In this document: positions 38,904 through 63,317 of the stretch, one piece after another
How the letters are laid out: each line of letters begins with the position of its first letter
Numbering within the stretch: the first letter of the stretch is position 1
Origin: Polaribacter gangjinensis
Lineage (GTDB): Bacteria > Bacteroidota > Bacteroidia > Flavobacteriales > Flavobacteriaceae
Reading direction: 5' to 3'
Assembly: GCF_038024125.1 (NCBI RefSeq)
Contig: NZ_CP150662.1
Coordinates: 2,187,501 to 2,251,500, forward strand
DNA length: 64,000 nt
Made by a program: the position numbers and the translations under genes
Notes under the pieces: model-generated
Told to the model about the DNA's origin: nothing
Databases searched by the model: none
What the model saw: the letters and a program-made list of their open reading frames with translations, nothing else

Positions 38904-40484
38904 TTAATCGATATTATCGTTGGCCGAAACTTCGATTAACGGAATTGGCCAAGTATAATCTTCTGCTTGTCTAGCACCATCAATGTTGCCATAAGCTGCT
39001 CTACACATTTCATCATAAACCCCCATTCTTGTAATGTCAAAAAAGCGATGACCTTCTACCGATAATTCAGCTGCACGCTCACGTAACAATGCTGTCCTGA
39101 AAGCATCCATATTCATTCCAAAGCCAGAAAAATTTGGCATACCAACTCTTGCTCTTAAAATATTGATATCTGCCTCAGCAGTTATTGGGTTTTGATTAAT
39201 TTCAGCCAATGCTTCAGCTCTCATTAAATACACATCTGCTAAACGAATTACATGCCAATTTTGTTGACTAGTATATTCTGTAGTGGCATCTCTATCAATA
39301 TATTTTGATGTAAAAACTCTAAATAAAGCACCAACAGAAGCGTTTGTTGAAAGGTTGGTTCTTAAGTACCCTGTGCTAGTTGGGTTTAAAACATGGTAAA
39401 AGGTTTCATCTTGATATTCACGAATGATAGAATTTTGAAAACGAATGTCATTTTTATCAATATTTCTATTGATAAAATTCGGAATCATTGCGTTTGTGCC
39501 TCCAAATCCACCTCCACTTAAACCGGCATTTCTTGGCGTAAATAAATTAGACAAAGCAGTTCCTTGTTCAACGATTGATGACCCTTGAATATCAAAAAGC
39601 ATCTCTGGATTATTACCGTTTTTTGCATCAAAAATATTGATCCAGTCAGTTAAATTAGAAACTAATTGATAACCACTTTCAGCCAAAACTAAATCACACT
39701 GTTCTTTAGCCATTTGATAATACGATTGTGCAGAATTTACAATTCCTAAGTAACGTGCATTACCTAAATTTCCTTCAGTTGCAGTTCTTTTTGATGAAGC
39801 AATTTGTAAGTATACTTTTGCTAACATAGCGTGAGCTGAAGCCTTAGTAACGCGCCCAATATTGTTAGTATATCCGTTTCTAGTTTCGTTAAAACCCCAG
39901 CAGTTTTCAGTTGCGTATTGTAAATCGCTTATAATTACTTCATAAATATCTTGAATTGGAGATTTTGGCAAACCACCTTCTCCTGGTTTAACAGGAGTAG
40001 TTCTTAAAGGAACTTCACCAAAACATCTAACCAAATTGAAATAGTTTAAGGCTCTTAAAAACTTTGCTTCACCAAGAACTCTTTTTTTCAATTGTTCGTC
40101 CATATCAACAATATCCGGAACACGAGCAATAACATTGTTTGCATCTTTAATTCCCACATAAATTTCGGTCCAAACAGCAGGTAAATTAGGATCAGTAGAT
40201 TCTATAGTACCTCTTCTAAAGCTACCATGTCTTCCTGCATTTGGTGTTCCTTGATCAGAAGCTCCAAAAAGGTTTGATAAAAATAATTGTCTATAGTAAC
40301 CATTCCCTTTTTTTAAATCGGCATATACAGCCGTTAAAGCGGCTAATGCATCTGTTTCATTTTTATAGAAAAAATCTGTTCCTATTTGATTTAGTGGTTG
40401 TTCTTCTAAAATACTATCACAGCTAAGAAATAAGATTGTAAATCCTAAAAATAAAAGCTTTTTAAAGTTGAAAGTTGTTTTCAT
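38904..40484 (-). CDS. SusD/RagB family outer-membrane lipoprotein
   Basis: Surface glycan-binding lipoprotein of 526 residues that caps the SusC channel. The lipobox is FLSC with Cys22. Typical SusD features are the ALAALTAVYADL segment early in the protein, TPR-like helices with LGEAKFLRALNYFNLVRCFG (about 133-152), the PLR segment after it, and the C-terminal ERAAELSVEGHRFFDITR motif. It ends in the usual DYTWPIP region. It lies 7 bases after susC, and its stop codon directly abuts the start of the decayed sulfatase. Confidence 0.96.
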   Translation of the reverse strand: MKTTFNFKKLLFLGFTILFLSCDSILEEQPLNQIGTDFFYKNETDALAALTAVYADLKKGNGYYRQLFLSNLFGASDQGTPNAGRHGSFRRGTIESTDPNLPAVWTEIYVGIKDANNVIARVPDIVDMDEQLKKRVLGEAKFLRALNYFNLVRCFGEVPLRTTPVKPGEGGLPKSPIQDIYEVIISDLQYATENCWGFNETRNGYTNNIGRVTKASAHAMLAKVYLQIASSKRTATEGNLGNARYLGIVNSAQSYYQMAKEQCDLVLAESGYQLVSNLTDWINIFDAKNGNNPEMLFDIQGSSIVEQGTALSNLFTPRNAGLSGGGFGGTNAMIPNFINRNIDKNDIRFQNSIIREYQDETFYHVLNPTSTGYLRTNLSTNASVGALFRVFTSKYIDRDATTEYTSQQNWHVIRLADVYLMRAEALAEINQNPITAEADINILRARVGMPNFSGFGMNMDAFRTALLRERAAELSVEGHRFFDITRMGVYDEMCRAAYGNIDGARQAEDYTWPIPLIEVSANDNID

Positions 40485-40491
40485 AATATTA

Positions 40492-43400
40492 TTAATAATT
40501 AAATTGTAAACCGAAAGTATAAGTTTTTACGCCAGGATATCCTCCAAAATCAACACCTCTTCTTTGAGGATCTTTGCTGAATGATGTTGCTTCTGGGTCA
40601 TAACCAGGATATTTTGTCCAGGTTAGTAAATTTTGACCTGCAGCATACAATCTTAAACTGCTTGAACCTTTAAAATTTAAGGTATAACCAATGTTTAAGT
40701 TTTTTAATCTTACGAATGAGCCATCATAGATTTGTCTGTCAGAAACGATAGCTCTAGGTCCTGAACCTTCAACCAAAGCAGCAGGATTTCCAACACCTGT
40801 TGTATTTCCAATAGCAGGATTATAAGTAAGTTCGCCAGTAGCTCTATTGAGTTCTAAAGGAGCTTTCCAAGAGTCTTGAAATGCAGATAATAAACCGTTT
40901 CTCGCTCCAGTATTTGATAAAAGTTGCCAAGAATCTACCCAAAATAAATCACCTCCTTTTTGAGCTGTAACTAAAAAGCTTGCATCCCAATTTTTATATT
41001 TAAAATTGTTTGTAATTGCGATGTTAAAGTCTGGATTTGGATCCCCAATTTGAACATAATCATCAAAATTGATTACTTGTTTACCATCACCATCAATAGT
41101 ATTGGTGTTATTATTTATGTATTTAATTTCTCCAGGAGTTGCTCCACTAATTCCGCTATTATTAGCCTCTTCCCAATCACGATAAATTCCATCAGTTTGA
41201 GCTCCCCAAAAAATACCTAGTGGCATTCCTTCCATAAACATGATTGGATTAGTTTGTGCAAAACCAACATTTGGACCTAATTGAAATTCTAGATTTGAAT
41301 TTAAGCTTATCAATTTATTTCTATTCAAAGAAAAATTACCAGAAATGTCCCAGCTAAAATCTTTTTCTTCAAAAATTGCTGTATTGATGGCTAATTCAAA
41401 TCCTTTGTTTTCTACTTCTCCAAAATTATCTACAATAGAGGCAAATCCGTTGGATGCTGGTAAGGTTACAAACTGTAATAAATCTTTGGTTCTTTTCAAA
41501 TAGGTATCAATTGTGATGTTCACTTTTGATTTAAAAAGACTGATATCTAAACCTGCATTGAATTGATCTGTTTTTTCCCAAGTTAAATCGTCGTTTGCTA
41601 AATTTGATTCAAAATAACCTGTAACTAACTGATTGTTAAAATTATACCTAATAGGATCTAACAAAGCCAATGATTGATAAGGCGCGATAGGATTACTACC
41701 TGTTCTACCATATGACATCCTTAATTTCATATCAGAAATTGTTTTAGAATCTTTTAAGAATTTTTCTTTTGATACTGTCCAAGAGAGAGCAAGTGAAGGA
41801 AAAATTGCGCTTTTGTTGTTTTCAGCAAACTTAGATGAAGCATCAATTCTTGCATTTACATCAACAAAATATTTGTTTTTATAAGAATACCCAACTCTGG
41901 CAAGTCCTGATAACAAACCAAAATCTCTAAATTGTGATACAGGAACTAAGATATCTGTTGCAGCTTGAAAATCGTAAAATTTAGTAGCATCAGAACCAAA
42001 ACCAAAGGCTTTGTTAAATAAAGATCGAATGCTGTTTTTTTCTAAGGTACCTACAATAATTGCATCAATTTTGTGTCCATTAAAATTATTTCTATATCGC
42101 AAACTAGTTTCTGCATAAATTTTTTCATTTTCAATGTAAGCTTGGGTTGCTTCGCCATTGTTTCTTCTACCTCTTGTAGTAGTTGTTGGATAGTAACTAT
42201 CTCTATTACTTCTTTGAAAGTTGAAAGCACCTTTTACCATAGCAGTTAATTTTGGGGAAAGTTTTGCTGACAATGATAAATTTTGAACAAAATTGTAGGA
42301 TTCTTTCAAATCTATTACCTGAGTTGCCAATGTAAATGGATTTGAAATGACATTTCCTTCATTTAAATCGGCATAAATATCATCATCTTCACCAGGATTT
42401 AACAATCCAAAAATTGGTTGGAATTGGAGTGTTTGAGAAACAATACCTCTTTGTAAGAAAATTTCGCCATTACCAACAGAAGTTGCATTGCCTTTGTTAT
42501 GTGCAAAATTGGTTCTCGAAATCACATCAATTTTATTATTAAAAGCTTTAGTACGAGCATTTAAATTGAAAGTAATTCTTTTATTTCCTGTATTTAAAAT
42601 AACACCTTCAGTATCTTGCATACCTAAGCTCATTAAAATATTTTTTCTTTCATCACCACTTCTATAAGATAAATTATAGTTGTTAGAAATGGCTTGTCTA
42701 TAAGTTAGTTTTTGCCAATTATTGTCAACTCCTGTTGTTGTTGGAAAAGGAATTGAAAAATTTGCTAATTCAGGAAAATTCGTTGTATTTAATGCTTGTG
42801 TACCATCAAATGGACCTCCAACTCTTAAAGGATTTGTTGCATTGATATAAAATTGATTGATGGCGCGTTGATTCATAAATTCTTCAAATTGAGGGCCATT
42901 CATCACGTCAATTTCGTTGGAAACGTTCGTAATAAAATTATCAATAGTTACTGTTATTGCGTCTTTTCCTCCTTCAGTTGCGCCGCTTTTTGTAGTAATT
43001 AAAACTACTCCATTTGCACCTCTGGCACCATAAACCGCAGTTGCAGCAGCATCTTTTAATACTTCAATTTTTTCGATATCATTTGGATTGATAAAACTCA
43101 ACGAATTTTGAGATTGTCCTGAACCTCCATTTCCTTCAGCATCAGTCATTGGATCTAAAGGAACACCATCAATCACATACAAAGGTTGTGTACCGCCTAA
43201 AATTGAGTTTGTTCCTCGAATTGAAATTGCAATTCCTCCTCCAGGTTCACCGCTATTGGTAACTACAACACCTGCAACTTGACCTTGTATCAATTGCTCA
43301 ACTGTATTTGTTCTTACTTTTTCTAAGTCTTTGGCTTTAATTTGAGCAATTGATCCAGATAAATCTTTTTTATTTACATCAAAATAACCAACACTAACGA

Positions 43401-43707
43401 CAACTTCATCCAATTGATTTAAATCGGTTTGTAAATAAACCACCATTGGAACTTCAGTTGCTTTTAACTCCATTGTTTTCATTCCGATAAATGAAAAAAC
43501 GAGTATTTTATCTTTGGAAGTTTTAATTTCAAAATTTCCATCAAAATCTGTGTAGGTTCCTACTTTTGTGCCTTTTACAAGAATTGATACTCCAGGTAAA
43601 GTTTCGCTAGTTTCTTTGTCATACACTTTTCCTTTGATGGTAATTTCTTGCGAAAGCACCACAAAAGGTAAAAAAAGTAATAGTAAATAGATGATTTTTG
43701 TTTTCAT
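40492..43707 (-). CDS. SusC/RagA family TonB-linked outer-membrane transporter
   Basis: TonB-dependent oligosaccharide importer of 1071 residues. Order: signal peptide; carboxypeptidase-regulatory-like domain (about 22-95, ITIKGKVYDKETSETLPG); plug domain with LDEVVVSVGYF, the LIQGQVAGVVV helix and YVIDGVPLDP (about 97-240); then a 22-stranded barrel ending in VKTYTFGLQFNY with an aromatic C-terminus. The TonB-box region is VVVSVGYFDV rather than the common VVVGYG. It lies 5 bases after the largest of the three GH-like genes and 7 bases before susD, in a single operon. Confidence 0.97.
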   Translation of the reverse strand: MKTKIIYLLLLFLPFVVLSQEITIKGKVYDKETSETLPGVSILVKGTKVGTYTDFDGNFEIKTSKDKILVFSFIGMKTMELKATEVPMVVYLQTDLNQLDEVVVSVGYFDVNKKDLSGSIAQIKAKDLEKVRTNTVEQLIQGQVAGVVVTNSGEPGGGIAISIRGTNSILGGTQPLYVIDGVPLDPMTDAEGNGGSGQSQNSLSFINPNDIEKIEVLKDAAATAVYGARGANGVVLITTKSGATEGGKDAITVTIDNFITNVSNEIDVMNGPQFEEFMNQRAINQFYINATNPLRVGGPFDGTQALNTTNFPELANFSIPFPTTTGVDNNWQKLTYRQAISNNYNLSYRSGDERKNILMSLGMQDTEGVILNTGNKRITFNLNARTKAFNNKIDVISRTNFAHNKGNATSVGNGEIFLQRGIVSQTLQFQPIFGLLNPGEDDDIYADLNEGNVISNPFTLATQVIDLKESYNFVQNLSLSAKLSPKLTAMVKGAFNFQRSNRDSYYPTTTTRGRRNNGEATQAYIENEKIYAETSLRYRNNFNGHKIDAIIVGTLEKNSIRSLFNKAFGFGSDATKFYDFQAATDILVPVSQFRDFGLLSGLARVGYSYKNKYFVDVNARIDASSKFAENNKSAIFPSLALSWTVSKEKFLKDSKTISDMKLRMSYGRTGSNPIAPYQSLALLDPIRYNFNNQLVTGYFESNLANDDLTWEKTDQFNAGLDISLFKSKVNITIDTYLKRTKDLLQFVTLPASNGFASIVDNFGEVENKGFELAINTAIFEEKDFSWDISGNFSLNRNKLISLNSNLEFQLGPNVGFAQTNPIMFMEGMPLGIFWGAQTDGIYRDWEEANNSGISGATPGEIKYINNNTNTIDGDGKQVINFDDYVQIGDPNPDFNIAITNNFKYKNWDASFLVTAQKGGDLFWVDSWQLLSNTGARNGLLSAFQDSWKAPLELNRATGELTYNPAIGNTTGVGNPAALVEGSGPRAIVSDRQIYDGSFVRLKNLNIGYTLNFKGSSSLRLYAAGQNLLTWTKYPGYDPEATSFSKDPQRRGVDFGGYPGVKTYTFGLQFNY

Positions 43708-43712: not shown

Positions 43713-46178
43713 TTAGTTGATTATTATTTTTCTTGTTACGATTGATTGATTTTTATTTTTGATGAGCACCAAATACAAGCCTTTTGTTAATTGATTTACA
43801 TTGAGTTCTTGTTCGTTTTGTACATTTATAAATGTTTTCACTGTTTTCCCTGTAATATCAATAATGGAAACACGTTCGTTGTTTTCTAATTGATTTATTT
43901 TAAAAATTCCATTATTTGGATTTGGATATAATACAAAGCTCTCATCATTCTTAGAAATATCAGAGATAGATAATGAATTTGCCCATTGTTGTCTTAAAAA
44001 GTTGGCAGCAACTCCCCAATTTCCATCAGGTTTTTTCATCCATTTACCTACCAACCATTGATTGAGGAAATCTCTATTGTATTGTGTGTTTTTTTCCCAA
44101 GTAAAACCATCAGGACCTGCTTTGTCATTTCCATACAAATTCCAAACATAAAAGTTCGGAATTCCAAGTCCTAAAGCCACACCAATATATCTTGTGTATC
44201 TGTTTGTAATTCCTGTAGGATTTTGAATTCCCTCATAAAATGAAGGATTTTCATTGATCCCAAATTCACCAATTTGCACAGGGAAATTGGTATTCATTTC
44301 TTTGGTTTCATTGGTGTAATAACGAGCCACTTCTAAACCTTTCCACATGGCATGCCCAAGAGGATTATTGCTATCAAACCATCCACCATCATAGGCTGAC
44401 CAAGAAGATAAATCAATTCTTGTTGCAGGTATGACATTTCCTAAAACACTAGGCGTGTTGTTTTGCATCATGGTCATTCTTACACCATTTTTTAACATCC
44501 AAAGTTTATTGAATTCTATAGCATGAAAAACTTTTGCACTGGCATTGGTATGCTCACTTCTGGCACGTTCTACACCTCTTTGTCTGGCTCTGAACAAACG
44601 AGCCATTCCTTCTATTTTCCAATCAACATCATCAGGAATTAAGTTCACATCATTTTCCCATAAAACACCTTGACCTCTCAACATCCAGTCACCTTCCCAG
44701 TTTTGGTATACAAAGGTTTTGTCCATTGATCCATAAGTTTCAAGAAGATGTTTTGTTAAATCATAGAATTGTTGTTCTTGATCTAAATATCTATCGTGAT
44801 TTAAATCAGGACCATCTTGATAAAACGATTGGTTTTTGGTGGTTGTCCAAAAAGTATGTCTTTTGATGTGAGTTCTTTTGAATAAAGAATCTACATGTTG
44901 ATGTTGAGCAACATCTTTTAGATTATTAAAATTCGGCCAAGTATGATTAAAATGATAGGCAGATTCCATATTTCCATTTTGGGCAGTTAGGGTAGTTTTA
45001 AAAGAGGTTGCTCCAAAATCTTTATATACATCCAAACCTTCTAACAAATAAGGTCTGTCAGTAAAATTATACCATCCAGCAATGTGACTTGCTCCAAAAA
45101 TATCTTTGATTTGAGGAACAGAAGCCCCTTTACTTGGGTCAAACTCGTCAATTTTTGCAGTGATTGTTTCTTTACTTGATTGTGTTGCTAGGTAGTGTTT
45201 TCTAACCTCTCCATTATTCACGAAAGTAAAATTTGGGTTGTTTGATGTGACACTTTCTATAGTTGTATTCTCTCCTAAACGAAATAATCCGCCTGAATTT
45301 ATGGTGAAATTAAATCCTGCAACAGCAGCAGCTCTAGTCACATTGTTGTTGATGAGTTGTGTATACAAAACACCTTGATTTTCGATAGTAAGTGAAGTTG
45401 TTTCACCAACATTGGTGTTTCTTGTAAACAGACTCACATCATTGGTAACTACAATTCCTTTGATGGTAAGGCTTGATTTTGCGGTAGTTGAACTAAATTC
45501 GTGTGTACTTCCTGTTAAACCCAACACTTTTTTTATTCTTACGTAAGCAAAATGTTCGATAGAAACATTGACTTTGTGATTAGATCTAATTACAAAATTA
45601 TCATCAAGTGTCATGTTGTATAAATCAATGATGACATTTTTTTCACCATCAGCGCTTGCAATACTTAGCACTCTTGGATTGAAATATCCTGAGCCAGAAA
45701 TGTAGGTTACATTGCTAGTTAGATTTAAAAAAATACGACTGTTTAAAGAATACAAACTTCCATCACCTGAACTTCCTGGAAGATTTCTTCCTGAAGAAAA
45801 AGTACCATCACATAAAATATTTCCATTGATGCGTAAATCTTTTTCGAAACTAGCTTGATTGTGTCCCATTCGTAAAACAGCTTTGGGTTTTACGTTTAGG
45901 TTTTTGCATAAATCTACCACAACTCCTGAACTTGTTCCTTGAATATCAATATAAACTGTATGATTATCATTGATGATGACATCTGTATTTGCAGTAGGCA
46001 CTTGTCCATTACTCCAAACTGTTGCATCACTCCAATTACCACTTTTGGTTGTTGTTACAGCGTTTGAAAAATCGATATTTTGATTGCTAACAATTGATAA
46101 TTGCGCAAGCGAAGTAAAGAAAGTAAAAAACAAAACTACAAATGATGCAGCTTGTTTATTGTTCAATAGCTGTATCAT
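43713..46178 (-). CDS. Putative clan GH-A glycoside hydrolase with N-terminal beta domain and T9SS tail (paralogue 3)
   Basis: Secreted protein of 821 residues. A signal peptide (ending SLAQ) is followed by a beta-rich, probably carbohydrate-binding region (about 40-330) starting GNWSDATVWSNGQVP. A TIM-barrel-like domain spans about 375-730. Its strand 4 end reads YQNWEGDW (proposed acid/base Glu495), a later strand VFHAIEFN, and the strand 7 end QIGEFG (proposed nucleophile Glu638). A T9SS type A domain (YPNPNNGIFK) covers 749-821. The barrel is paralogous to the two genes upstream. T9SS export suggests it acts outside the cell, as an endo-enzyme would. I do not recognise a CAZy family. It overlaps the preceding gene by four bases. 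Confidence 0.72.
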   Translation of the reverse strand: MIQLLNNKQAASFVVLFFTFFTSLAQLSIVSNQNIDFSNAVTTTKSGNWSDATVWSNGQVPTANTDVIINDNHTVYIDIQGTSSGVVVDLCKNLNVKPKAVLRMGHNQASFEKDLRINGNILCDGTFSSGRNLPGSSGDGSLYSLNSRIFLNLTSNVTYISGSGYFNPRVLSIASADGEKNVIIDLYNMTLDDNFVIRSNHKVNVSIEHFAYVRIKKVLGLTGSTHEFSSTTAKSSLTIKGIVVTNDVSLFTRNTNVGETTSLTIENQGVLYTQLINNNVTRAAAVAGFNFTINSGGLFRLGENTTIESVTSNNPNFTFVNNGEVRKHYLATQSSKETITAKIDEFDPSKGASVPQIKDIFGASHIAGWYNFTDRPYLLEGLDVYKDFGATSFKTTLTAQNGNMESAYHFNHTWPNFNNLKDVAQHQHVDSLFKRTHIKRHTFWTTTKNQSFYQDGPDLNHDRYLDQEQQFYDLTKHLLETYGSMDKTFVYQNWEGDWMLRGQGVLWENDVNLIPDDVDWKIEGMARLFRARQRGVERARSEHTNASAKVFHAIEFNKLWMLKNGVRMTMMQNNTPSVLGNVIPATRIDLSSWSAYDGGWFDSNNPLGHAMWKGLEVARYYTNETKEMNTNFPVQIGEFGINENPSFYEGIQNPTGITNRYTRYIGVALGLGIPNFYVWNLYGNDKAGPDGFTWEKNTQYNRDFLNQWLVGKWMKKPDGNWGVAANFLRQQWANSLSISDISKNDESFVLYPNPNNGIFKINQLENNERVSIIDITGKTVKTFINVQNEQELNVNQLTKGLYLVLIKNKNQSIVTRKIIIN

Positions 46179-47419
46179 TTTTTTGAATTTACAATATTTA
46201 TAACTTCTACTCTCAATTCATTATAAACTTCATTCAGCACTTTTAATGCTTCAATTTTAAAAACTTCTTGAGTAGGATATACTTTATGTTGTTCTTTATA
46301 ATCTTTTAAATACTCATTAATTTTTTTGTAATAATTTTGATGTAGGTAGTACATGGTCCTTTTTTCACCTTTTTCATTGATTAAAGACATGTTTTTAGAT
46401 TTACCAGTTTCTGTATATTCGTTGTTATACAATTGCCAATACAGTGCAAAAGGGTAGTCTTCTTCTAAAGAAATCTGCATGATGTCTTTTGCATTGTCAA
46501 ATTGTTTAAGGAGTGTTTCAGGCTTATCATCCATTGCATGCCCACCATATTCGCCAATAAAAACTCTTCTTTTAAAAGGCAATCCTTCTTTAGGTTTTAA
46601 CTGACTTTCTATATAATTCATCACTTTTGTCATCGATTCTTTATTTGCCTCGTAATCTTTTTTCTTGCTAGATTCGTAGCTAGAATATGATACAAAATCA
46701 ACATCAACATTTGGTAAAATATGGCTTGTGATAGAGATTTTACCTTCCATCCCTTTTACAGCCAAGTTCACTTCGATATAATTGTACACAGAAACATTTT
46801 TGTGAGGAGTTTTTTCTTTGGCATCAGCAATTGCTCGTTGTCTTATTTGGAACCATTGGGTCATGTTTTCAACTGTTTGTTGTGAAGGTTCTATATTTTT
46901 TTTCCCTTCACCATGTAGCAACCAATCACCTTCCCAATTTCCAATCATAAAAGTTTTGCCAGTGTTATTGTATTTTTTTAGTAGATATGCCGTAAAATCA
47001 TACATTTCTTTATAAAGAATTTTTTCTTGTTCTTTAGTGATGCCATTTTTCCATTTAATTCCTGTAACGGTATGTACCCAGAAAAAGAAGTACTTAAAAT
47101 CCATCTGAAATACTTTGTCAAAGTCAGGAATTAGCTTTATTACATCTAATGTGTTTTTTGCATCACTTTTATTGTAACCATAATTTGATAAGATTTTATC
47201 GGTGATTGTAGTTTTAAAAATATTAGAACCTACAGCTCTGGTTTGTTTGGCTTGTTCTATTAGTTTTGAATCTTTTGTAAATTGATATTTTGTTGGAAAA
47301 CTATTCAATCCTAACACAAAATTATAGTCCTCTAAAGCTATTGTTTTATCATAAGTAATTTCTTGACCAACAATAAATGTGGTTGATAAAAGGAATAGTA
47401 TTATTGAAAAATGTTTCAT
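46175..47419 (-). CDS. Putative clan GH-A glycoside hydrolase, periplasmic (paralogue 2)
   Basis: 414 residues with a cleavable signal peptide (ending IVGQ), no T9SS tail and no lipobox, hence probably periplasmic. Eight candidate barrel strands can be followed: YNFVLGLNS, GSNIFKTTI, FKYFFFWVH, KTFMIGNWEGDW, VSVYNYIEVN, VDFVSYSSY, RRVFIGEYG and PFALYWQLYNNE. The Glu at the end of strand 4 (Glu163, NWEGDW) and strand 7 (Glu290, IGEYG) are placed as in retaining clan GH-A hydrolases. It is paralogous to both neighbours. It overlaps the next gene by four bases. The substrate is unknown, but the PUL context favours a sulfated mannose-containing glycan. Confidence 0.72.
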   Translation of the reverse strand: MKHFSIILFLLSTTFIVGQEITYDKTIALEDYNFVLGLNSFPTKYQFTKDSKLIEQAKQTRAVGSNIFKTTITDKILSNYGYNKSDAKNTLDVIKLIPDFDKVFQMDFKYFFFWVHTVTGIKWKNGITKEQEKILYKEMYDFTAYLLKKYNNTGKTFMIGNWEGDWLLHGEGKKNIEPSQQTVENMTQWFQIRQRAIADAKEKTPHKNVSVYNYIEVNLAVKGMEGKISITSHILPNVDVDFVSYSSYESSKKKDYEANKESMTKVMNYIESQLKPKEGLPFKRRVFIGEYGGHAMDDKPETLLKQFDNAKDIMQISLEEDYPFALYWQLYNNEYTETGKSKNMSLINEKGEKRTMYYLHQNYYKKINEYLKDYKEQHKVYPTQEVFKIEALKVLNEVYNELRVEVINIVNSKK

Positions 47420-47424
47420 TAATT

Positions 47425-48699
47425 TTATGGGTTTAAACTTTTAAATTGCAATGCTTTTTTCTTGAATTCATTAAAACTTGGGGACTTTCCATTGGCTTTT
47501 ACGTATTTTTCTACAAACGCTTTTGACTCCTTATAAAACGAATTGTGTGTGTACCAAATGGGTTGTTTTTTACCTTTGTCGTTGATTAACCAATAACCTA
47601 CTTGCTCACCATTGGTATTTATTTCATTGTTGTACATTTCCCAATACAAAATAAATGGTGTTCCCCATTCTAAAGCAGCTTTAATTGTCCAAATAGAACG
47701 CAAATTTTGAGATTCATCACTGTTAGAAATACTTGGACTTCCGTATTCACCAATCCATACTCTTTTTCCTTCAGGAAGTCCTGTTTTTGGAGAAAGTTGA
47801 GATTCTAAATAATCTAGCGCTTTTTGAAGATTTTTTTTCAATTTTTCTTCAGTTTTATAAGGATTTGTTGCGTCGTAAGAAGAATATGAAACATAATCAG
47901 GATTTACCACATTTACAATACTATTGGCAACAACCTGAGCATTTGGTTCATCCAAGGCTTTTTTTACCAGATTTACTTCAATATAATGATACACTTCTAT
48001 ATCATTATGAGTAACCGCTTTTTTTGCATCATCAATGGCTTTTTGTCTGATTTTTGCCCATTTGATCATGCCTTCTAATGTTTTAGGGTTTGCAGGTTTT
48101 GTTCGGTCATAATCAGAGCGTAAGTGCCAATCACCTTCCCAATTTCCTAAATAAAATATTTTACCAGTTCCATTATAAGTTTTTAAAAGATATGAGGTAA
48201 ATTCATACAATTCATCATACAATGCTTTTTCATATTTTTCTGAAAATCCATCAATAAATTTAATTTGAGCGGTATCGTCTTTTTTTCCTTCAGGTTCAGG
48301 AGTGTATTGAGAAAATCCATATGTCCAAATATGATAAAATTTAAAATCCATGTCCAATACTTCTTTCATTGAGGGCTCTAGCGTTGCTAATTTTGTTAAA
48401 GAAGTAATTTGATCATTGTGTGGTAATCCATAATTTTCAGAGGAATATCTTGGATGCATAGAAAATTTTAAGAGATTGGAACCCATTTTTTGAATTTCTA
48501 AGGCAGTTTCTACCAACATAGATTTATCAGTGAACTTGTATTTAGAACCCACAGTTTGCGTCCCAATCACATAGTTAAAAGAGTTTACATGATGTTTTAC
48601 ATTTTTACCACCCTTTTTAAATGAGGTGATAAAAAAATAACCAACAATACTGATTGCGATCATAATGATGGTAAAGTAGAATGGGTTAATTTTTTTCAT
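47425..48699 (-). CDS. Putative clan GH-A glycoside hydrolase, membrane-anchored (paralogue 1)
   Basis: 424 residues. A single hydrophobic segment (about 8-25) with no clear cleavage site suggests an inner-membrane signal anchor with the barrel in the periplasm. Barrel landmarks match paralogue 2: KIFYLGNWEGDW (Glu188 proposed acid/base), VYHYIEVN (Glu241), DYVSYSSYD, RVWIGEYG (Glu318 proposed nucleophile) and FILYWEMYNNE. It is the first gene of the susCD operon. About 190 bases upstream of it are free of genes and hold a perfect 18-base palindrome and one GGTCAAT word. The family is unrecognised, and the catalytic assignment is inferred from fold order. Confidence 0.72.
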   Translation of the reverse strand: MKKINPFYFTIIMIAISIVGYFFITSFKKGGKNVKHHVNSFNYVIGTQTVGSKYKFTDKSMLVETALEIQKMGSNLLKFSMHPRYSSENYGLPHNDQITSLTKLATLEPSMKEVLDMDFKFYHIWTYGFSQYTPEPEGKKDDTAQIKFIDGFSEKYEKALYDELYEFTSYLLKTYNGTGKIFYLGNWEGDWHLRSDYDRTKPANPKTLEGMIKWAKIRQKAIDDAKKAVTHNDIEVYHYIEVNLVKKALDEPNAQVVANSIVNVVNPDYVSYSSYDATNPYKTEEKLKKNLQKALDYLESQLSPKTGLPEGKRVWIGEYGSPSISNSDESQNLRSIWTIKAALEWGTPFILYWEMYNNEINTNGEQVGYWLINDKGKKQPIWYTHNSFYKESKAFVEKYVKANGKSPSFNEFKKKALQFKSLNP

Positions 48700-48890: not shown

Positions 48891-51800
48891 TTACTGTGAG
48901 TCTATAAATTCTTTGGGAGTTTGTCCGTAATATTTTTTGAAAATTGTACTGAAGTACTTTGGGTCTTGAAAGCCAGATTCATACGCAATGTCTGAAATTC
49001 GAGTATTTGGTTTGTTTTTCATTAATTCTTCAGCATGGCTTAGTTTAATTTTTATAATCAAATCAGAAGGTGACATTTGTATCAATCCTTTTAATTTTCT
49101 GAATAAATTTGATCTACTCAATCCCATATTTTCGCTCAAATTGTCTATCGAAAAATCTTTGGAGTGTAAATTAGATTTTATCATTTCAATTACATCAGAT
49201 AAAAATCGTTCATCAGGCGTAAGTTGTTTTTCTACTTCTTTATCATCTAAAAGACGATGAATATTTTCTCTTGATTTGATTAAATTCTGAATGGTAACTT
49301 TTAATATTTCTAAATTGAACGGTTTCTCAACATACGCATCAGCACCAGTTTCCAATCCTTTTAATTTATCGTCAATATCAACCAATGCCGTTAACATAAT
49401 TATAGGAATATGGCTTGTTTTGAAGTTGGTTTTCAGTAAGTTACACAATTCTTTGCCATTCATTTCTGGCATCATAACATCCGTAATGATCAAATCAGGA
49501 TTTTTAGATAGTGCAATTAGCAAACCCTCTTTTCCGTTTGAAGCCTCTAAAACAGTATATTGTTTATCCAATTCGTTTTTGATGGCTTTTCGCAATTCTT
49601 CAGTATCTTCTATCAATAAAATTACCTTGTCCTCTTGAATTAAATTATCAACCGATTTTTCTGAAGTTGCTTTTTGAATCTCGGTTTTTAATTCTCCTTG
49701 CTTGTAATGCTCAGTGCCATAAGGCAAAACAATGGTAAATTTCGATCCAATATTTTCTTTACTTTCCAACAATATTTTTCCTCCATGCAATTCAATTATT
49801 TTTTTGGAGAGCATCAATCCAATGCCAGTTCCAGGAATTCCTTTGTTAGAAACATTAGTTCCACGTGTAAATCTTTTAAAAACGAGTTCTTGCTGTTTTT
49901 CGGGAATTCCAATTCCAGTATCTATAAATTCAATGGATAAATTGTTGTTTTTTACATACGCTTTTATGTCAATTTGACCTCCATCTTCACTGTATTTTAT
50001 GGCATTTGAAATCAGGTTGTAAAAAATTCGAGTCATTTTTACCTTATCAAACCAAACAGGAATGTTTTTAACATCCATCTGAATATCCAAAGATCGTTCT
50101 TGTAAAATGGGTGTAAAATCTTTCACCACATTTGCCAAACATTCGCTCAAATCAACTTTTGTAACCGAAAGTTTCAACTGATTTCTATCAATTTTTTGAA
50201 AATCTAATAATTGAGTTACATATTCATTCAAATTTTCAGTGTTTCTTTGAATCAATTCAATTGATTTCTTGGTGTTTTCTTGATTGGTCAATTGTTTCAC
50301 CAATAATTGAATTAGTGAAACTGGTGTTCTAATATCATGTGCAACTTCAATAAAAAATTTGATGCGATCTTCATCAGTCCGTTTTCTAATGTTTGCTTTA
50401 GTAACTCTATAAATCAAATAAATGAAAAAACAAATGATGATAAAATAGCTGATGATGGCAACTGCTGTTTTCCAAAATGGTTTTTTAACGGTGATTTTTA
50501 ATACTAATTCTTTGTCTCCTTGAACGCCTTCAGCATTGAAACCTTTTGCCAATAATCGATAGTTACCAGGTGCTAAATTAGAATAGGTGATTTTTTCATT
50601 GCCATAAATGGTTTTTGATTTTTCGTCAAATCCATGCAATTGATATTCAAATTTATTTCTTTTAGAGCCATGAAATTTGATGGTTTCAAAATTGAAAGAA
50701 ATGGAGTTTTGATCAAATTCAAGTTCAATTTCATCTAAAAAATTGATGTTTTTTTTGAGTGAAATTGTATCAGGTTTTTTTCCATTGATTTGAAAATTAC
50801 CAAGAAAAATATCATTGATTGGGCGATCTTTTTCTAATTCAATGGGTTGAAAAATGATAGCGCCATTAGGACCACCAAATGCAAAACGACCATCTTTTAG
50901 TTTTGTAGAAGCGCCCAAACCAAATTCTTCAATTATTAAACCATCTTGATCATTATATTTTCTAAATAATTTGGTTTTGATTTGATACATCCAAAGTCCA
51001 GAAATGGTCCCTAAAAACAAGCGATGCATATTGTCTTTTTTGATGGAAAAAACAGTGCCAATTTCTTTTTTTGAATCTTCACTACTGTTTTCAATAGTTT
51101 CATCACTCAAATTAAATTTGTACAAACCGTTCGTACTTCCAATCCAGATTGCATTATTCAATTGATCAAAATGCAAACTTTGTATTTCATTGATATTGTT
51201 AAAAAAATCACCTTTTAGTTTTCGAACACTTTTGTTACGATCATTAATCTCAAAAAAGCCATTACTAGTGCCTGCATAATAAATATCATCATAACCTTGT
51301 ACAATTGCTCTAACCAAACCAATGGCATATTTGCTGATTAATTTATTTTGATGATAGTGCATTAATGGGCCATCACTACCAGAAACCCACAAATTTTCAC
51401 CAAAAACAACGAGGTTAAAAATAAATTGTAAAGGTACTTTGGGTTCTAAATTAGGTAAACTTACTGTTTCTTCTTTCGGATTAAATTTTAAAATTCCTTC
51501 GCCATAAGTTCCTATCAAAAGTTCGTTTTGATATTCATTAATAGCCAATACAGCAGTGTTGTATAACTTAGGATTTTTGTTGTAGTTTGTCCATTTTTTA
51601 TCACCAAATTTACTAATACCATTTTCCGTTCCAAACCATAAATCACCATTTTCAGATTCGTAAACAGCTCTCACACTATTATTGTTGATACTGTTTGGAT
51701 TGTTCAATTCATGCGTTATTTGCTGAAAAATATTGTCTTTTTGATAAATAATATTGATGCCACCTTCTCTTAAACCAATCCAATAGGCATTTAATTTATC

Positions 51801-52706
51801 TACAAAAATTTCATAAATACTGTTTTGGCTGATGCTATTGGCATTGTCAACATTATGACTAAAAGACGAAGTTATTTTCAAATTTTCATCTATCACAAAA
51901 AGACCCAATCTATCAATAGCAACAAGAGCATTGTTTTGATTATCGAATTTAATTTTTCTGATAGCATACGTTTTTTTCAGAATTTCATCAATTACAATTG
52001 GTTTTATCTCATTGTTATCTTTGATGAAAAGTCCGCCAACTTCGGTTCCAATCCAAAGTCTATTTTTAGCATCTAAGGCAATATTGATGATGTCATTTTT
52101 CTCTAAAATTCTATCAGAAAAAATGAGTTTATTTGTTTTGGTATCATAGTTATATACAAAACATCCTTTTCCAGTAGCAGAAAAAACGGTATTGTTTTTT
52201 ACCAATACTTTTCTGTTGAAATTGGTTTCAGGGTAAAAAATTTCAGATTTCTTTTTGGAAGTTGTATTGTAAATCAAAAGTCCTGTGTCCAGACCAATCA
52301 CTATTTTATCATCTTGTAGTTTTGCAATTGATAAAAATCGTTTTTTATCAATGTGTAACACTTTTTCAAAAGAGTCAAATTTGTATAAATATTTGATGAG
52401 GTAACCATTAGGGCTAATCATGTAAATGGTTCCATTCAAATTTATAATATCAACAATTCCTGTACTTTCAGAAGAAGTAATTGTTTCTAAATCATACTTT
52501 TTAAATTCAACACCCGAAAATCTATTGATTCCTTTGTCTGATCCAATCCAAAGGTACCCAAGGCTGTCTTTTTCAAAAACATTGATAGTACCGTTTATTA
52601 TGCCTTCTTTGGTATCAAGTCTTTTAACATATTGAGAAAAACCTGTAAAGTAAACACACAATAAAGTAATGAAATGCAGAAAAAAAGGATTGTTGTAGTG
52701 TTTCAT
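48891..52706 (-). CDS. Hybrid two-component system regulator (HTCS) of the PUL
   Basis: One-protein sensor and response regulator of 1271 residues. A signal peptide is followed by a periplasmic two-propeller sensor with repeated LWIG/WIGT units (about 30-640) and a Y_Y_Y domain (about 690-735). One membrane helix lies at about 748-768. The histidine kinase has phospho-acceptor His790 in VAHDIRTP and an ATPase domain with GTGIGLMLSKKI. The receiver has Asp1076 in ITDVMMP. An AraC-type helix-turn-helix closes the protein (ISDIAYESGF, YFSTIFKKYYG). HTCS proteins sense PUL oligosaccharides in the periplasm and switch the locus on. I start it at the ATG at 52706, because the ten preceding codons overlap the -7 box. 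Confidence 0.96.
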   Translation of the reverse strand: MKHYNNPFFLHFITLLCVYFTGFSQYVKRLDTKEGIINGTINVFEKDSLGYLWIGSDKGINRFSGVEFKKYDLETITSSESTGIVDIINLNGTIYMISPNGYLIKYLYKFDSFEKVLHIDKKRFLSIAKLQDDKIVIGLDTGLLIYNTTSKKKSEIFYPETNFNRKVLVKNNTVFSATGKGCFVYNYDTKTNKLIFSDRILEKNDIINIALDAKNRLWIGTEVGGLFIKDNNEIKPIVIDEILKKTYAIRKIKFDNQNNALVAIDRLGLFVIDENLKITSSFSHNVDNANSISQNSIYEIFVDKLNAYWIGLREGGINIIYQKDNIFQQITHELNNPNSINNNSVRAVYESENGDLWFGTENGISKFGDKKWTNYNKNPKLYNTAVLAINEYQNELLIGTYGEGILKFNPKEETVSLPNLEPKVPLQFIFNLVVFGENLWVSGSDGPLMHYHQNKLISKYAIGLVRAIVQGYDDIYYAGTSNGFFEINDRNKSVRKLKGDFFNNINEIQSLHFDQLNNAIWIGSTNGLYKFNLSDETIENSSEDSKKEIGTVFSIKKDNMHRLFLGTISGLWMYQIKTKLFRKYNDQDGLIIEEFGLGASTKLKDGRFAFGGPNGAIIFQPIELEKDRPINDIFLGNFQINGKKPDTISLKKNINFLDEIELEFDQNSISFNFETIKFHGSKRNKFEYQLHGFDEKSKTIYGNEKITYSNLAPGNYRLLAKGFNAEGVQGDKELVLKITVKKPFWKTAVAIISYFIIICFFIYLIYRVTKANIRKRTDEDRIKFFIEVAHDIRTPVSLIQLLVKQLTNQENTKKSIELIQRNTENLNEYVTQLLDFQKIDRNQLKLSVTKVDLSECLANVVKDFTPILQERSLDIQMDVKNIPVWFDKVKMTRIFYNLISNAIKYSEDGGQIDIKAYVKNNNLSIEFIDTGIGIPEKQQELVFKRFTRGTNVSNKGIPGTGIGLMLSKKIIELHGGKILLESKENIGSKFTIVLPYGTEHYKQGELKTEIQKATSEKSVDNLIQEDKVILLIEDTEELRKAIKNELDKQYTVLEASNGKEGLLIALSKNPDLIITDVMMPEMNGKELCNLLKTNFKTSHIPIIMLTALVDIDDKLKGLETGADAYVEKPFNLEILKVTIQNLIKSRENIHRLLDDKEVEKQLTPDERFLSDVIEMIKSNLHSKDFSIDNLSENMGLSRSNLFRKLKGLIQMSPSDLIIKIKLSHAEELMKNKPNTRISDIAYESGFQDPKYFSTIFKKYYGQTPKEFIDSQ

Positions 52707-52724
52707 TTGTTGTGTAATTGTTAT

Positions 52725-52732
52725 CAAAAATA
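52725..52732 (-). promoter_or_regulatory. -7 promoter box for the HTCS gene
   Basis: The minus strand reads TATTTTTG, matching TAnnTTTG, 18 bases before the ATG. It starts directly after the T-run of the upstream sulfatase terminator. Confidence 0.55.
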
Positions 52733-52760
52733 GCAAAAAACCCAGTGAATTTTCACTGGG
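52733..52760 (-). terminator. Rho-independent terminator of the GH130-symporter-sulfatase operon
   Basis: The GC-containing stem CCCAGTGA/TCACTGGG (52741-52748 with 52753-52760) has a four-base loop. On the minus strand it is followed by a run of six T. It lies 8 bases past the sulfatase stop. Confidence 0.92.
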
Positions 52761-52767: not shown

Positions 52768-54246
52768 TTATTTCTTCTTAGGAACTTGTGTTCTTAGCCA
52801 CCAGTCTCTGTCAGTATTGTATTTGTATTTTATTTTTTGTTTTTCAAGTTCTTTTCGAAGTTGAGTTACTACTTTTTGATATGCTGGATTGTTGATGAGG
52901 TTTACCATTTCACCAGGATCTTTTTCCAAATCATACAATTCGTCAATATCATTTTCTAAAAAAGCATCTACCAATTTGTATTTTTCTGTTCTTAATGCTA
53001 ACATATTTGGTCCTGCATATGGATACGCATCATCCACATAATATTCAAACATAAATGCATCTCTCCATTTGGAGTTTTTTTGTTTTTTATCAAACAGTGG
53101 CATTAACGATTCTCCTTGCATATATGTTGGTTTTTTAACTCCAGCCCATTCTAAAATTGTGGGAGCTAAATCGATATTTAAAGCTGTTTTTTCAATCACA
53201 GTTTTTTTCTGAATTGATTTTGGATAACGAATCAACATTGGAATTCGGATTGAATTTTCATAGGCAATTCTTTTGTCCCAATAACCATGTTCGCCCATAA
53301 AATAACCATTGTCACTGCTAAAAATTATTACAGTATTGTCTAGTTCACCCAATTCTTCAAGAGCTGCTAAAACACGTCCTAAAGATTCATCAACGGAAGC
53401 TAAGGTTTCTAATAATTTTTTGAATTTATCACCTTTTATAGGCCAAGGTTTTGGTGCTATAGAATCAGCAGGAATGTAGTTTTTCCAGTCAGAATCCCAT
53501 GTTTTGATGCGTTGCCATTCAGGTTTTCCTTTAAAATTCTCTAAATGAGTATTGTAAGGAGGTAAAGGCAAATCATCTTTTGCATACATATTATTGTGTC
53601 TTGGAGCAGGTAAGTGGTCTTCATGAACCGCTTTGTGCCATAAATTTAAACTGAAAGGTTTGTTTGGATCTCTTTTCTCTTTTAACCAACTTATGGCTTT
53701 GTCAGTCAAAATATCAGTCATATAGCCTTTTTCTTGATATTCTTTTCCATTGTCATTTACTTTTGGATCAAAATATTCACCTTGACCAATAAAACTATAC
53801 CAATAATCAAAACCAGGTCTGATGTGTTTTTTTCCTTTATAATGAGCCATGTGAATTTTTCCAACATGAGCTGTTTGATATCCAGCATTTTGTAGATGTT
53901 CGTTGTAAGGTTTGTATGTTTTCCAATCTGGATCAACATGTGGATTGTTTTGATTTACACCATGAATATGAGGATACGTTCCTGTTAAAAAACTTGCTCT
54001 TGATGGTGAACAGATGGATTGTGTTACAAAATAATTGGTGAATTTTACCCCTTCATCTTCCAATCTTTGCAAGTTTGGAGTTTTCAAAAAGGGATATCTT
54101 CCACTTGATTCCAATGCGTCAAAAGGTTGATCATCTACTAAAATAAATAAGAAATTGGGTTGCTTATTTTTTTCTTGACCAATAATTGTAGAAAAGGTCA
54201 ATATCAATAAAACAAGAAACGAATTTTTTATGTTTAATTTATTCAT
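52768..54246 (-). CDS. S1 family sulfatase (Cys-type)
   Basis: Exported sulfatase of 492 residues (signal peptide ending IIGQ). The formylglycine site is CSPSR at residues 79-83, so it needs a maturase to convert Cys79. Metal ligands begin with DDQ at about 38-40 and continue with SSDNGYF near the middle. The C-terminal subdomain ends in the usual YDLEKDPGEMVNL. It lies 10 bases after the symporter gene and is the last gene of that operon. It removes sulfate esters from the PUL substrate, probably in the periplasm. The S1 subfamily cannot be assigned from motifs alone. Confidence 0.95.
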   Translation of the reverse strand: MNKLNIKNSFLVLLILTFSTIIGQEKNKQPNFLFILVDDQPFDALESSGRYPFLKTPNLQRLEDEGVKFTNYFVTQSICSPSRASFLTGTYPHIHGVNQNNPHVDPDWKTYKPYNEHLQNAGYQTAHVGKIHMAHYKGKKHIRPGFDYWYSFIGQGEYFDPKVNDNGKEYQEKGYMTDILTDKAISWLKEKRDPNKPFSLNLWHKAVHEDHLPAPRHNNMYAKDDLPLPPYNTHLENFKGKPEWQRIKTWDSDWKNYIPADSIAPKPWPIKGDKFKKLLETLASVDESLGRVLAALEELGELDNTVIIFSSDNGYFMGEHGYWDKRIAYENSIRIPMLIRYPKSIQKKTVIEKTALNIDLAPTILEWAGVKKPTYMQGESLMPLFDKKQKNSKWRDAFMFEYYVDDAYPYAGPNMLALRTEKYKLVDAFLENDIDELYDLEKDPGEMVNLINNPAYQKVVTQLRKELEKQKIKYKYNTDRDWWLRTQVPKKK

Positions 54247-54256: not shown

Positions 54257-55882
54257 TTACCAGAAAATTATTAAAATTATAAAACAAAATGCGATTAATA
54301 GATAAGACCAGAAACGGTAGTTTGCTAGTAATGGTTGACTTTTTAAAGCCAGTGTTTCTTCATTAAATTCTTTCATCGTAAATGTTAATTGATCCGTTTT
54401 AACCAAAGGCGGTTTTTTGGTTAACAAACTCACAACAACCATCACTAAAATACTCCAAGAAAAATAAAATGGCACTGTAATTAAAAAGTGCATTTCACCA
54501 AAAATTGAGGTGCCTACTTGCAGTTTGTAAATAATATTGATTACACCTAACAAAACCCCTGCAATCAATCCAACAAAAGCGCCTGTTGCATTGGTTCTTT
54601 TCCAAAAAATTCCCAACATAAAAGCCGCTACAATTGGTGGAGCCATTACCGAAAGCATTTCTTGATAATATTTTAGGAGTGTCCCAAACTGTTTTCCAAT
54701 TTGAGGTGCCCACATTACAGCAATAATTAATACAGTTAATGATACAATTTTTCCTACTCTAACTTTCTTTTTTGAGGAGCTTTCAGGATAAAATTTATCG
54801 TAAAAGTCCATCGTGAAAAGTGTAGCTACCGAATTTAACAATCCACTTAATGAAGATGTCAACGCAGCAACCATGGCAGCAATCATAAATCCAATCAAAA
54901 CATTAGGCAATAATTCCATGATTAATTTTGGATACACCATATCTGGCTTTGGCAAGTTTGGAAATAATTTGATAGCCATTACTCCAGGAATGATGATTAA
55001 AAACAAGGTTAACATGGTTAAAAATCCAACCAAAAGAACTCCTTTTCTTCCTTCATCAATAGATTTTGCAGTTAAAACTCTTTGAACCAATTGCTGGTTA
55101 TTTCCCCAAAAGAACATTCCTAAAATTGGGATTCCTAAAAGCATACCCAACCAAGGTACAGAGGCATCATTATTGTCTCTGACTAGTTTCATCATGGTAT
55201 CACCACTAGCAAAAAGTTCTTTCACGTATTCAACTCCACCATTTTTTGTAGCATAAAATGTCAAAACAATAGAGCCAACGAGTAAGAAAATTCCTTGCAT
55301 CAAATCTACTCTAATGGCTGCTGAAAGTCCACCAGGAATGGTATATGCAGCAACAACGATCGCAAAAACAATAGAAAGCGTTAATAATGAAGCTTCAGGA
55401 AATACAATTTTCATTACCATTGCTGCAGCATACAAAGAACCAGCTGCATCTAAAAATATATTAACAACAATGGTGATTGCAGAAAAATAGTATCGTGAAG
55501 CAACACTGAAACGTTTTTCTAAAAATTCAGGAATCGTAAAAATTTTAGATTTGATGTAAAATGGCAAAATAAACCAAGCAAAAAAGATCATTACCAATAC
55601 AGAAACTAGGTTGTAATTGAATACTGCAATTCCTGTGCTGTATGCATCTCCAGCTTGACCTATCAAAGTAGAACTCGAAATACTTGCTGCAAACAACGAA
55701 AAACCAATGACACTCCAACTCATGCCTCTTCCAGCCAAAAAGTAGGATTTTTCATCCCCACTTTTGCTATATTTTACACCCAAATAAACAATGAATAAAA
55801 AATATAAAACAATGATGAATATATCAGCCCAGGATAAACCATTTACCCAACTTGGACCATCAGTAATAAAGTTTGTTTGCAT
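54257..55882 (-). CDS. Sodium:solute symporter (SSS family)
   Basis: Inner-membrane sodium-coupled permease of 541 residues with 13-14 hydrophobic helices. SSS hallmarks are YFLAGRGMSWSVIGFSLFAASISSS near the start and the central FWGNNQQLVQRVL segment, both typical of SGLT-like sugar transporters. Placed between GH130 and a sulfatase in one operon (gaps of 14 and 10 bases), it probably imports the monosaccharide or disaccharide released in the periplasm. That would feed the GH130 enzyme and ManA. The exact substrate is inference. Confidence 0.92.
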   Translation of the reverse strand: MQTNFITDGPSWVNGLSWADIFIIVLYFLFIVYLGVKYSKSGDEKSYFLAGRGMSWSVIGFSLFAASISSSTLIGQAGDAYSTGIAVFNYNLVSVLVMIFFAWFILPFYIKSKIFTIPEFLEKRFSVASRYYFSAITIVVNIFLDAAGSLYAAAMVMKIVFPEASLLTLSIVFAIVVAAYTIPGGLSAAIRVDLMQGIFLLVGSIVLTFYATKNGGVEYVKELFASGDTMMKLVRDNNDASVPWLGMLLGIPILGMFFWGNNQQLVQRVLTAKSIDEGRKGVLLVGFLTMLTLFLIIIPGVMAIKLFPNLPKPDMVYPKLIMELLPNVLIGFMIAAMVAALTSSLSGLLNSVATLFTMDFYDKFYPESSSKKKVRVGKIVSLTVLIIAVMWAPQIGKQFGTLLKYYQEMLSVMAPPIVAAFMLGIFWKRTNATGAFVGLIAGVLLGVINIIYKLQVGTSIFGEMHFLITVPFYFSWSILVMVVVSLLTKKPPLVKTDQLTFTMKEFNEETLALKSQPLLANYRFWSYLLIAFCFIILIIFW

Positions 55883-58779: not shown

Positions 58780-58786
58780 CAAAAAG

Positions 58787-63299: not shown

Positions 63300-63317
63300 C
63301 AGTTGAAATTTGAAGCA

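Follow-up and report, generated by a model that had tools for sequence, protein, structure and literature searches.

Three adjacent paralogues of an unclassified clan GH-A-like barrel family in a polysaccharide utilisation locus of Polaribacter gangjinensis

Introduction

Polysaccharide utilisation loci (PULs) of marine bacteria often carry 'hypothetical proteins' at the place of the backbone-cutting enzyme. Such a locus lies within the 64,000 nt of the Polaribacter gangjinensis genome analysed here (GCF_038024125.1, contig NZ_CP150662.1, nt 2187501 – 2251500; this whole stretch is referred to as the window, and its own numbering is used below). Three adjacent genes in it encode proteins of 821, 414 and 424 aa that share the motif NWEGDW, and the question is whether these represent one enzyme family and, if so, which glycan they attack. 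The reading favoured here, and considered probable with some reserve, is that they form one unclassified family of retaining beta-glycosidases with a clan GH-A barrel, and that they act in relay to degrade a sulfated polysaccharide that contains beta-mannose. We know of no dedicated endo-enzyme for such a sulfated beta-mannan. With hundreds of members at this position, the family would make it easier to recognise the glycan that such loci consume and, if the substrate is correctly assigned, might supply an enzyme with which sulfated beta-mannans can be detected in the marine environment. Its altered strand-4 motif would also test how far the catalytic machinery of clan GH-A is fixed.

Three paralogues with clan GH-A-like barrels

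The first-pass annotation, made from the sequence alone, had placed three related tandem genes here, and both their coordinates (Table 1) and their relationship are confirmed. In pairwise comparisons the 414-aa and 424-aa proteins are 36% identical (E 2e-82), and the 821-aa protein shares 29% identity with the former over 198 residues (E 2e-17) and 25% with the latter over 344 residues (E 9e-19). The three proteins are paralogues; mere coincidence of motifs was rejected, as the similarity is significant beyond them. The 414-aa and 821-aa genes overlap by four bases (46175 – 46178), which suggests translational coupling.

Predicted models of the 414-aa and 821-aa proteins are (beta/alpha)8 barrels, and their structural matches are barrels of the clan GH-A type, to which we take the matched families to belong. 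Both have Glu at the ends of strands 4 and 7. In the 414-aa model, E163 is two residues past strand 4 (156 – 161) and E290 two residues past strand 7 (286 – 288), while in the 821-aa model E495 is three residues past strand 4 (488 – 492) and E638 is within strand 634 – 639, at the end of strand 7. The Glu pairs proposed earlier (495/638, 163/290 and 188/318) were correctly numbered, occupy aligned, invariant columns, and have codons that read GAA. A third Glu, within IE(V/F)N, is common to all three proteins (residue 555 in the 821-aa, 216 in the 414-aa and 241 in the 424-aa protein). The two models, the structural matches and the profile alignment of E290 (see below) all support a clan GH-A-like barrel that carries the strand-4/strand-7 Glu pair.

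Relatives were collected from GTDB genomes with the patterns GNWEGDW and WQ[ML]YNNE, the best 80 of 101 matching stretches giving 78 loci; these are not independent, as some are pairs from one contig (e.g. L067/L083, L026/L031, L027/L030 and L069/L087). An alignment of 113 rows, comprising the 110 of 122 family open reading frames (ORFs) that covered at least 300 profile columns and the three window proteins, has 13 invariant positions (414-aa numbering): G64, K69, W162, E163, G164, D165, E216, N218, D241, S246, G289, E290 and W328. Because of the patterns used for collection, the invariance around E163, and partly that of W328, is biased; E216 and E290 are unaffected. The proteins of one diverging branch (L034, L038, L046, L052 and L079) have LGEIG at strand 7; they group with the 821-type proteins, and the same loci hold another family member.

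A protein database search at E ≤ 0.001 found 836 sequences related to the 414-aa protein and 136 related to the 821-aa barrel, and a search with 28 diverse members, in which the 8000 candidates sharing most words were scored, gave 590. Statements on domains cover the 120 relatives listed for each search, of which 57 (414-aa protein) and 63 (821-aa barrel) were used in sequence sets A2 and A5, respectively. None of those listed for the 414-aa protein carries a Pfam domain, and only two of those listed for the 28 members do so.

Export signals and domain architecture

The 821-aa protein ends in a sorting domain of the type IX secretion system (T9SS), matching Por_Secre_tail at residues 750 – 820 (E 4.6e-15). 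The listed relatives of its barrel carry the T9SS tail (PF18962, 117 of 120), G8 and, in one case, PF14828. When the 13 full-length 821-type ORFs of the GTDB loci were tested for YxNP at the C-terminus, the tail was indicated in 6; so simple a pattern can overlook a tail that is present. Judged by eye, the N-terminus of the 414-aa protein resembles a cleavable signal peptide and that of the 424-aa protein a hydrophobic anchor; the N-termini of their orthologues are similar, again by eye, while a crude lipobox pattern picked out a small number of rows. The 414-aa protein is thus probably periplasmic and the 424-aa protein probably membrane-anchored. Of the three places of action first proposed, T9SS export is backed by the library match of the sorting tail, and the model shows the beta-rich N-terminal domain; the periplasmic and anchored sites follow from N-termini read by eye. 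Stepwise breakdown across three compartments is plausible. Elsewhere, the family domain is found fused to GH5 (P0297), to a SASA esterase (P0290), and between CBM2 and a GDSL match below the cut-off (L056).

The polysaccharide utilisation locus

The order of transcription is GH130, sodium:solute symporter (SSF), sulfatase, hybrid two-component system regulator (HTCS), 424-aa, 414-aa and 821-aa genes, SusC and SusD, with a GH116-like and an esterase-like gene further on; two more sulfatases and ManA are divergent and lie beyond GH130 (Table 1). With a SusC/SusD pair, a regulator and several carbohydrate-active genes, the region qualifies as a PUL. No endo-acting family was found among the scanned PUL ORFs, and the genome has no match to GH5, GH26, GH39 or GH42. 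The earlier statement that no other endo-acting enzyme is visible in the locus stands to this extent, with the reservation that two T9SS-exported proteins of no assigned catalytic family adjoin the PUL (29607 – 32279, 890 aa; 32356 – 33867, 503 aa). These have weak matches to beta-helix-type repeats and homologues in some sister loci (L018, L020, L021 and L040), and could be further glycan-active proteins.

The GH116-like protein matches exo-beta-D-arabinofuranosidase at E 1e-130, which is closer than its match to beta-glucosidases, and has relatives of 61% identity in three Pedobacter loci that hold the barrel family (L034, L038 and L046).

Table 1. Features of the window with coordinates (nt) and strand
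Feature	Coordinates	Strand	Remarks
Esterase-like (BD-FAE / alpha-beta hydrolase)	34526..35368	-	
GH116-like protein	35452..38076	-	nearest solved relative exo-beta-D-arabinofuranosidase (8ic6)
SusD-like protein	38904..40484	-	SusD_RagB 38910-39668, PF07980 E 6.4e-35
SusC-like TonB-dependent transporter	40492..43707	-	Plug domain 43006-43371, PF07715 E 1.2e-24
821-aa paralogue	43713..46178	-	signal region, N-terminal beta-rich domain (weak G8), clan GH-A-like barrel (~residues 350-735), T9SS type A sorting tail
T9SS C-terminal sorting domain, 821-aa (residues 748-821)	43716..43937	-	library match
E638 codon (IGEFG), 821-aa, predicted nucleophile	44265..44267	-	alignment, model
E495 codon (NWEGDW), 821-aa, predicted acid/base	44694..44696	-	alignment, model
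N-terminal beta-rich domain, 821-aa (~residues 30-330)	45189..46091	-	predicted model; G8 E 0.013, below cut-off
414-aa paralogue	46175..47419	-	predicted exported/periplasmic clan GH-A-like barrel (model; signal peptide by eye)
E290 codon (IGEYG), 414-aa, predicted nucleophile	46550..46552	-	conservation, model, profile alignment
E216 codon (IEVN, strand 5), 414-aa, invariant third Glu	46772..46774	-	conservation, model
E163 codon (NWEGDW), 414-aa, predicted acid/base	46931..46933	-	conservation, model
424-aa paralogue	47425..48699	-	predicted membrane-anchored barrel (homology; anchor by eye)
E318 codon, 424-aa, strand-7 Glu	47746-47748	-	alignment
E188 codon, 424-aa, strand-4 Glu	48136-48138	-	alignment
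HTCS regulator (Reg_prop, Y_Y_Y, HisKA, HATPase, response regulator, AraC)	48891..52736	-	
Sulfatase (PF00884)	52768..54246	-	best solved relative 5g2v (N-acetylglucosamine-6-sulfatase)
SSF symporter	54257..55882	-	
GH130	55897..56952	-	signal peptide not apparent by eye; nearest relatives beta-1,2-mannoside phosphorylases; translation probably starts at an ATG 14 codons inside
Two further sulfatases (PF00884)	57178..60328	+	
Mannose-6-phosphate isomerase (ManA)	60349..61323	+	

Distribution and sister loci

The rows of the alignment come from seven phyla: Bacteroidota, Verrucomicrobiota, Pseudomonadota, Armatimonadota, Lentisphaerota, Planctomycetota and Kiritimatiellota. A quick maximum-likelihood tree of them (arbitrarily rooted, and with several long branches unsure) separates an 821-type group (13 rows, support 100), a 424-type group (19 rows, support 99) and a wider 414-type group (33 rows, support 98) that includes sphingomonads and one planctomycete. 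Each of the three contains both Flavobacteriaceae and Marinilabiliaceae, so the triplication is either older than these lineages or has moved as a unit. The order GH130-SSF-sulfatase-HTCS-424-414-821-SusC is kept in six GTDB loci (L017-L020, L023 and L024). Among 199 genomes of the host family, Flavobacteriaceae, only four carry the NWEGDW family, with three matches each time, and it is missing from another genome of the genus, which makes the locus patchy.

Exactly those four genomes (of 198) carry a GH130 that is 88 – 100% identical to the one in the window. The next GH130 sequences are 69 – 71% identical (G180 and G001), followed by others of at most 43% among the rows listed. In both G180 and G001 the corresponding loci (L213 and L214) hold GH130 and SSF with SusC/D relatives, GH5-like barrels (two in L213, one in L214) and SASA esterases, the NWEGDW family being absent; L213 also carries a GH2 of the mannosidase type. 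NCBIfam gives no specific name for the GH5 and esterase genes of these loci, and a 519-aa neighbour in L213 has no PDB sequence match. We read these two cases as a probable replacement of one type of endo-enzyme by another on related beta-mannans.

Fifty of the 78 loci are at least 18 kb long, and among these GH130 is present in 15, GH2 in 16, a sulfatase in 33 and a SusC relative in 17. Since any GH130 match occurs in just 81 of 198 host-family genomes, with at most five match rows each, its presence in 15 of 50 loci of about 20 kb is far above chance, with the proviso that the loci are not independent. In sphingomonads GH2 adjoins the family gene (6 GH2 among 32 neighbours from 7 loci; 32 of 40 scanned), and Verrucomicrobiota-type loci have 6 GH130 and 7 sulfatases among 75 scanned neighbours (of 82).

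Single family members occur in Legionella anisa and Legionella sp. PC1000 (L091 and L092, around nt 10001), with no sulfatase or GH130 match in either locus; in L091 the gene is near sugar-transporter-like and PhyH genes. In Thalassotalea sp. 42_200_T64 a member is split over two frames (L074:9842-11979), representing a broken gene or a sequencing error.

Proposed pathway and substrate

The T9SS-exported 821-aa enzyme would cut the polymer at the cell surface, and SusC/D would import the pieces, which the envelope enzymes (414-aa exported, 424-aa anchored) would shorten to small oligosaccharides. The sulfatases would strip sulfate, the 5g2v-like enzyme of S1_11 type taking the 6-sulfate. A small sugar, the mannosyl disaccharide, would then be imported by the SSF symporter and split by a cytoplasmic GH130 to give mannose 1-phosphate, and ManA would feed central metabolism. 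Paralogy, predicted fold, Glu positions and their conservation, locus make-up and co-occurrence are computed; we infer catalysis, retention, endo action, the beta-mannan substrate, the order of steps and where the 414-aa and 424-aa proteins are located. According to PMC13063451, the sulfatase 5g2v is a member of subfamily S1_11, and PMC4599007 describes secreted GH130 as tending to be hydrolases and others as intracellular phosphorylases.

Sulfated mannans had been suggested by the first-pass annotation as substrates for assay. The context (GH130, ManA, the S1_11-like sulfatase, and GH2 and GH5/esterase genes as neighbours or replacements) argues for a glycan containing beta-mannosides, and is good indirect evidence for a role in the breakdown of a sulfated beta-mannan-type glycan. 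The GH116-like gene is no argument for mannan, and GH99-like and GH92 genes are present elsewhere in the genome (see below).

Several results count against beta-mannan. The GH130 scores 231 bits relative to a cut-off of 450 for beta-1,2-mannobiose phosphorylase, so that a beta-mannoside is only its tentative substrate, and the single GH5 match of L214 is just below the PF00150 cut-off. Neither GH130 nor GH2 is found in 20 of the 50 long loci. Of the sphingomonad GH2 enzymes, the one compared resembles exo-beta-D-glucosaminidase (1e-73) more than beta-mannosidase (8e-42), and the Pedobacter GH2 is about equally close to both. The loci with neither GH130 nor GH2 and the affinities of these GH2 enzymes, taken with the arabinofuranosidase-like GH116 and with the CBM2 fusion, which is from a gammaproteobacterium, could point to enzymes of the same fold and retaining mechanism that act on another beta-linked polysaccharide, e.g. 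a mixed one with D-arabinofuranose, glucose, glucosamine or uronic acid, in which mannose is only a side or repeat-unit sugar. This appears somewhat unlikely given the very close pairing with one type of GH130, the presence of ManA in the window, and the replacement loci, which have GH5 and SASA esterase genes and, in one case, a mannosidase-type GH2.

A sulfated beta-mannan is retained as the preferred substrate. Among the closest known systems are the beta-mannan PULs of North Sea Flavobacteriia, which combine GH130 with GH26 (PMC6298971). The likeness lies in GH130 together with SusC/D and an endo-enzyme; the difference is that P. gangjinensis has no GH26 in its genome and that sulfatases are present. 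The endo-enzyme slot of a beta-mannan PUL has apparently been taken by the new family. A wider formulation can be offered tentatively: a clan GH-A group of endo-beta-glycosidases at family level, seen in seven phyla, with Trp in place of Asn before the acid/base and the strand-5 Glu/Asn in the -1 subsite, of which marine Bacteroidota may use three old paralogues as a surface-to-envelope relay for sulfated beta-mannan.

A different sulfated mannan was also considered. According to PMC13063451, GH195 is endo-acting on the C6-sulfated alpha-1,3-mannan of diatoms, together with GH92. It is similar in being a T9SS-exported endo-enzyme with sulfatases in marine Bacteroidota, and a new family for sulfated mannan, and differs in that it is GH99-related by its description there; the comparison made here was with GH99-like sequences, which gave no profile match. 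Its partner GH92 was not found among the scanned window ORFs, while GH99-like and GH92 genes of the host are about 240 – 270 kb away. The diatom-type alpha-1,3-mannan, whose pathway uses GH195/GH92 (PMC13063451), was rejected as target by this argument of location only. The distant region (G000:C1:2473528-2507608) has three GH99-like matches, two over the cut-off and the third under it, and one of the three is in a 1458-aa frame. Three GH92 genes and a TonB plug domain accompany them, and the region resembles in kind the diatom mannan locus of that source. A fourth GH92 of this genome is at 876504.

Relation to described families

The catalytic barrels match no NCBIfam model, and no Pfam model above its cut-off. 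Individual scans of 28 diverse members against Pfam gave only scattered weak matches (best E 0.0075). Against PDB sequences, the 414-aa protein matches nothing at E up to 10, a profile of 59 family sequences gave one chance match (E 1), a diverse profile gave chance matches only (best E 0.34), and the significant matches of the 821-aa protein are confined to its T9SS tail. For Pfam, NCBIfam and PDB sequences, the claim of an unrecognised family is therefore upheld.

A profile match was obtained with GH5. The family profile matches a profile of 27 GH5 sequences (27 of 30 loci, L117, L118 and L119 being left out) with a probability of 97.1% (E 1.5e-10), aligning IGEYG on LGEWG, which we take to be the GH5 nucleophile motif. 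With a trimmed GH5 profile of 14 sequences the probability is 85% and the score 49.5, compared with at most 19.4 in 19 of 20 column shuffles and 12.3 for the reversed profile. The alignment with GH26 has the same register at strand 7, without significance. Certain outcomes weaken the link to clan GH-A: one of the 20 shuffles scored 132.7 (taken as an artefact of gapped columns); with gapped columns removed, the real score falls to 39.5 (probability 52%, 75 columns), the top of 100 shuffles being 25.2; the GH5 match has a gap at strand 4; no match was obtained with a GH39 profile built from 10 Bacteroidota sequences (score 0.8, probability 0.03%), though GH39 is the best structural match; and the profiles of GH26 (score 20.1, probability 0.64%) and GH42 (28.8) gave no significant match.

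Membership in GH5, GH26, GH39, GH42, GH164 and GH99 was rejected on comparison of sequences or profiles. GH5 shares the barrel and nucleophile motif, is found in the replacement loci and is fused to the family in P0297, and differs in having Asn-Glu at strand 4 where the NWEGDW family has Trp-Glu; PF00150 was not reached in the family domain of the 28 scanned members, and P0297 matches it only in its other domain (residues 58 – 347). GH26 and GH39 fail on both Pfam (PF02156 and PF01229, respectively) and profile, and GH42 on profile. PslG of Pseudomonas aeruginosa (GH39) is a structural match at only 10 – 12% identity. The GH164 beta-mannosidase of Bacteroides salyersiae is 9 – 11% identical over a larger protein, and GH164 was dismissed as there is no sequence similarity at E up to 10 although GH164 entries stand in PDB. 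GH99 is matched neither through PF16317 nor by the profile of GH99-like sequences (score 15.4, probability 0.14%), which was built from 13 host-family sequences of less than 700 aa, leaving out three long frames and a strong GH99 (L194).

New GH families appear yearly, and the NWEGDW family might already be in CAZy, either as a family of its own or within another, and lack a Pfam or NCBIfam model and a solved structure. This is judged unlikely. A literature text search, outside which most subscription papers fall, found no mention of NWEGDW; titles and abstracts on GH187-190, GH192-194 and GH196-200, and on new clan GH-A families in marine Flavobacteria, did not point to such a family; searches for GH130 + GH116 + sulfatase + PUL and for beta-mannan terms found nothing on such a locus. 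For GH195, which PMC13063451 describes as GH99-related, GH99-like relatives were compared in its place, and these do not match the family profile; the lack of any PDB sequence match also argues against a described family. As far as Pfam, NCBIfam, PDB and the literature allow it to be tested, this is a real, broadly distributed and undescribed clan GH-A-like family.

Candidate catalytic residues

E163, E188 and E495 are the predicted acid/base residues, and E290, E318 and E638 the predicted nucleophiles. The acid/base is placed by barrel position only, as the strand-4 Glu falls in the gap of the GH5 profile match, and so its assignment is provisional. In most clan GH-A enzymes the acid/base Glu directly follows an Asn. 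Here the Glu is preceded by Trp in 113 of 113 rows, the only clan GH-A trait examined that differs, and this speaks against the assignment, as does the invariance of E216, which could itself be catalytic. His-Glu stands at this position in 17 of 20 GH26 sequences, and GH26 is an accepted member of clan GH-A, whose mannanase families are GH5, GH26 and GH113 according to PMC9032380; Asn is therefore taken as usual and not as defining.

If the strand-5 Glu were one of the catalytic pair, the same barrel would use a different pair or mechanism. E216 and N218 are as invariant as E163 and E290 (113 of 113 rows), and the usual Asn is missing, yet E290 aligns on the nucleophile motif of GH5 (and, without significance, on that of GH26), and Glu after strands 4 and 7 is presumably the arrangement of the matched clan, so that this alternative is very unlikely. 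Glycan-binding or otherwise non-catalytic barrels, which the atypical residue before E163 might suggest, activity being so far a prediction, are the least probable explanation of all, as several acidic residues at the barrel ends are invariant across phyla, the three paralogues are retained together, and the domain occurs in fusions with GH5, esterase and CBM2 modules.

Other genes in the window

Outside the PUL, a protein with a Pycsar effector (PycTM) domain is encoded at 15086 – 16279 and may represent an anti-phage gene. It is followed at 16321 – 18708 by a 795-aa protein without a Pfam match at E up to 1e-4. At 61384 – 63320, a gene of the peptidyl-arginine-deiminase type adjoins a carbon-nitrogen hydrolase gene, a pair presumably as in agmatine breakdown.

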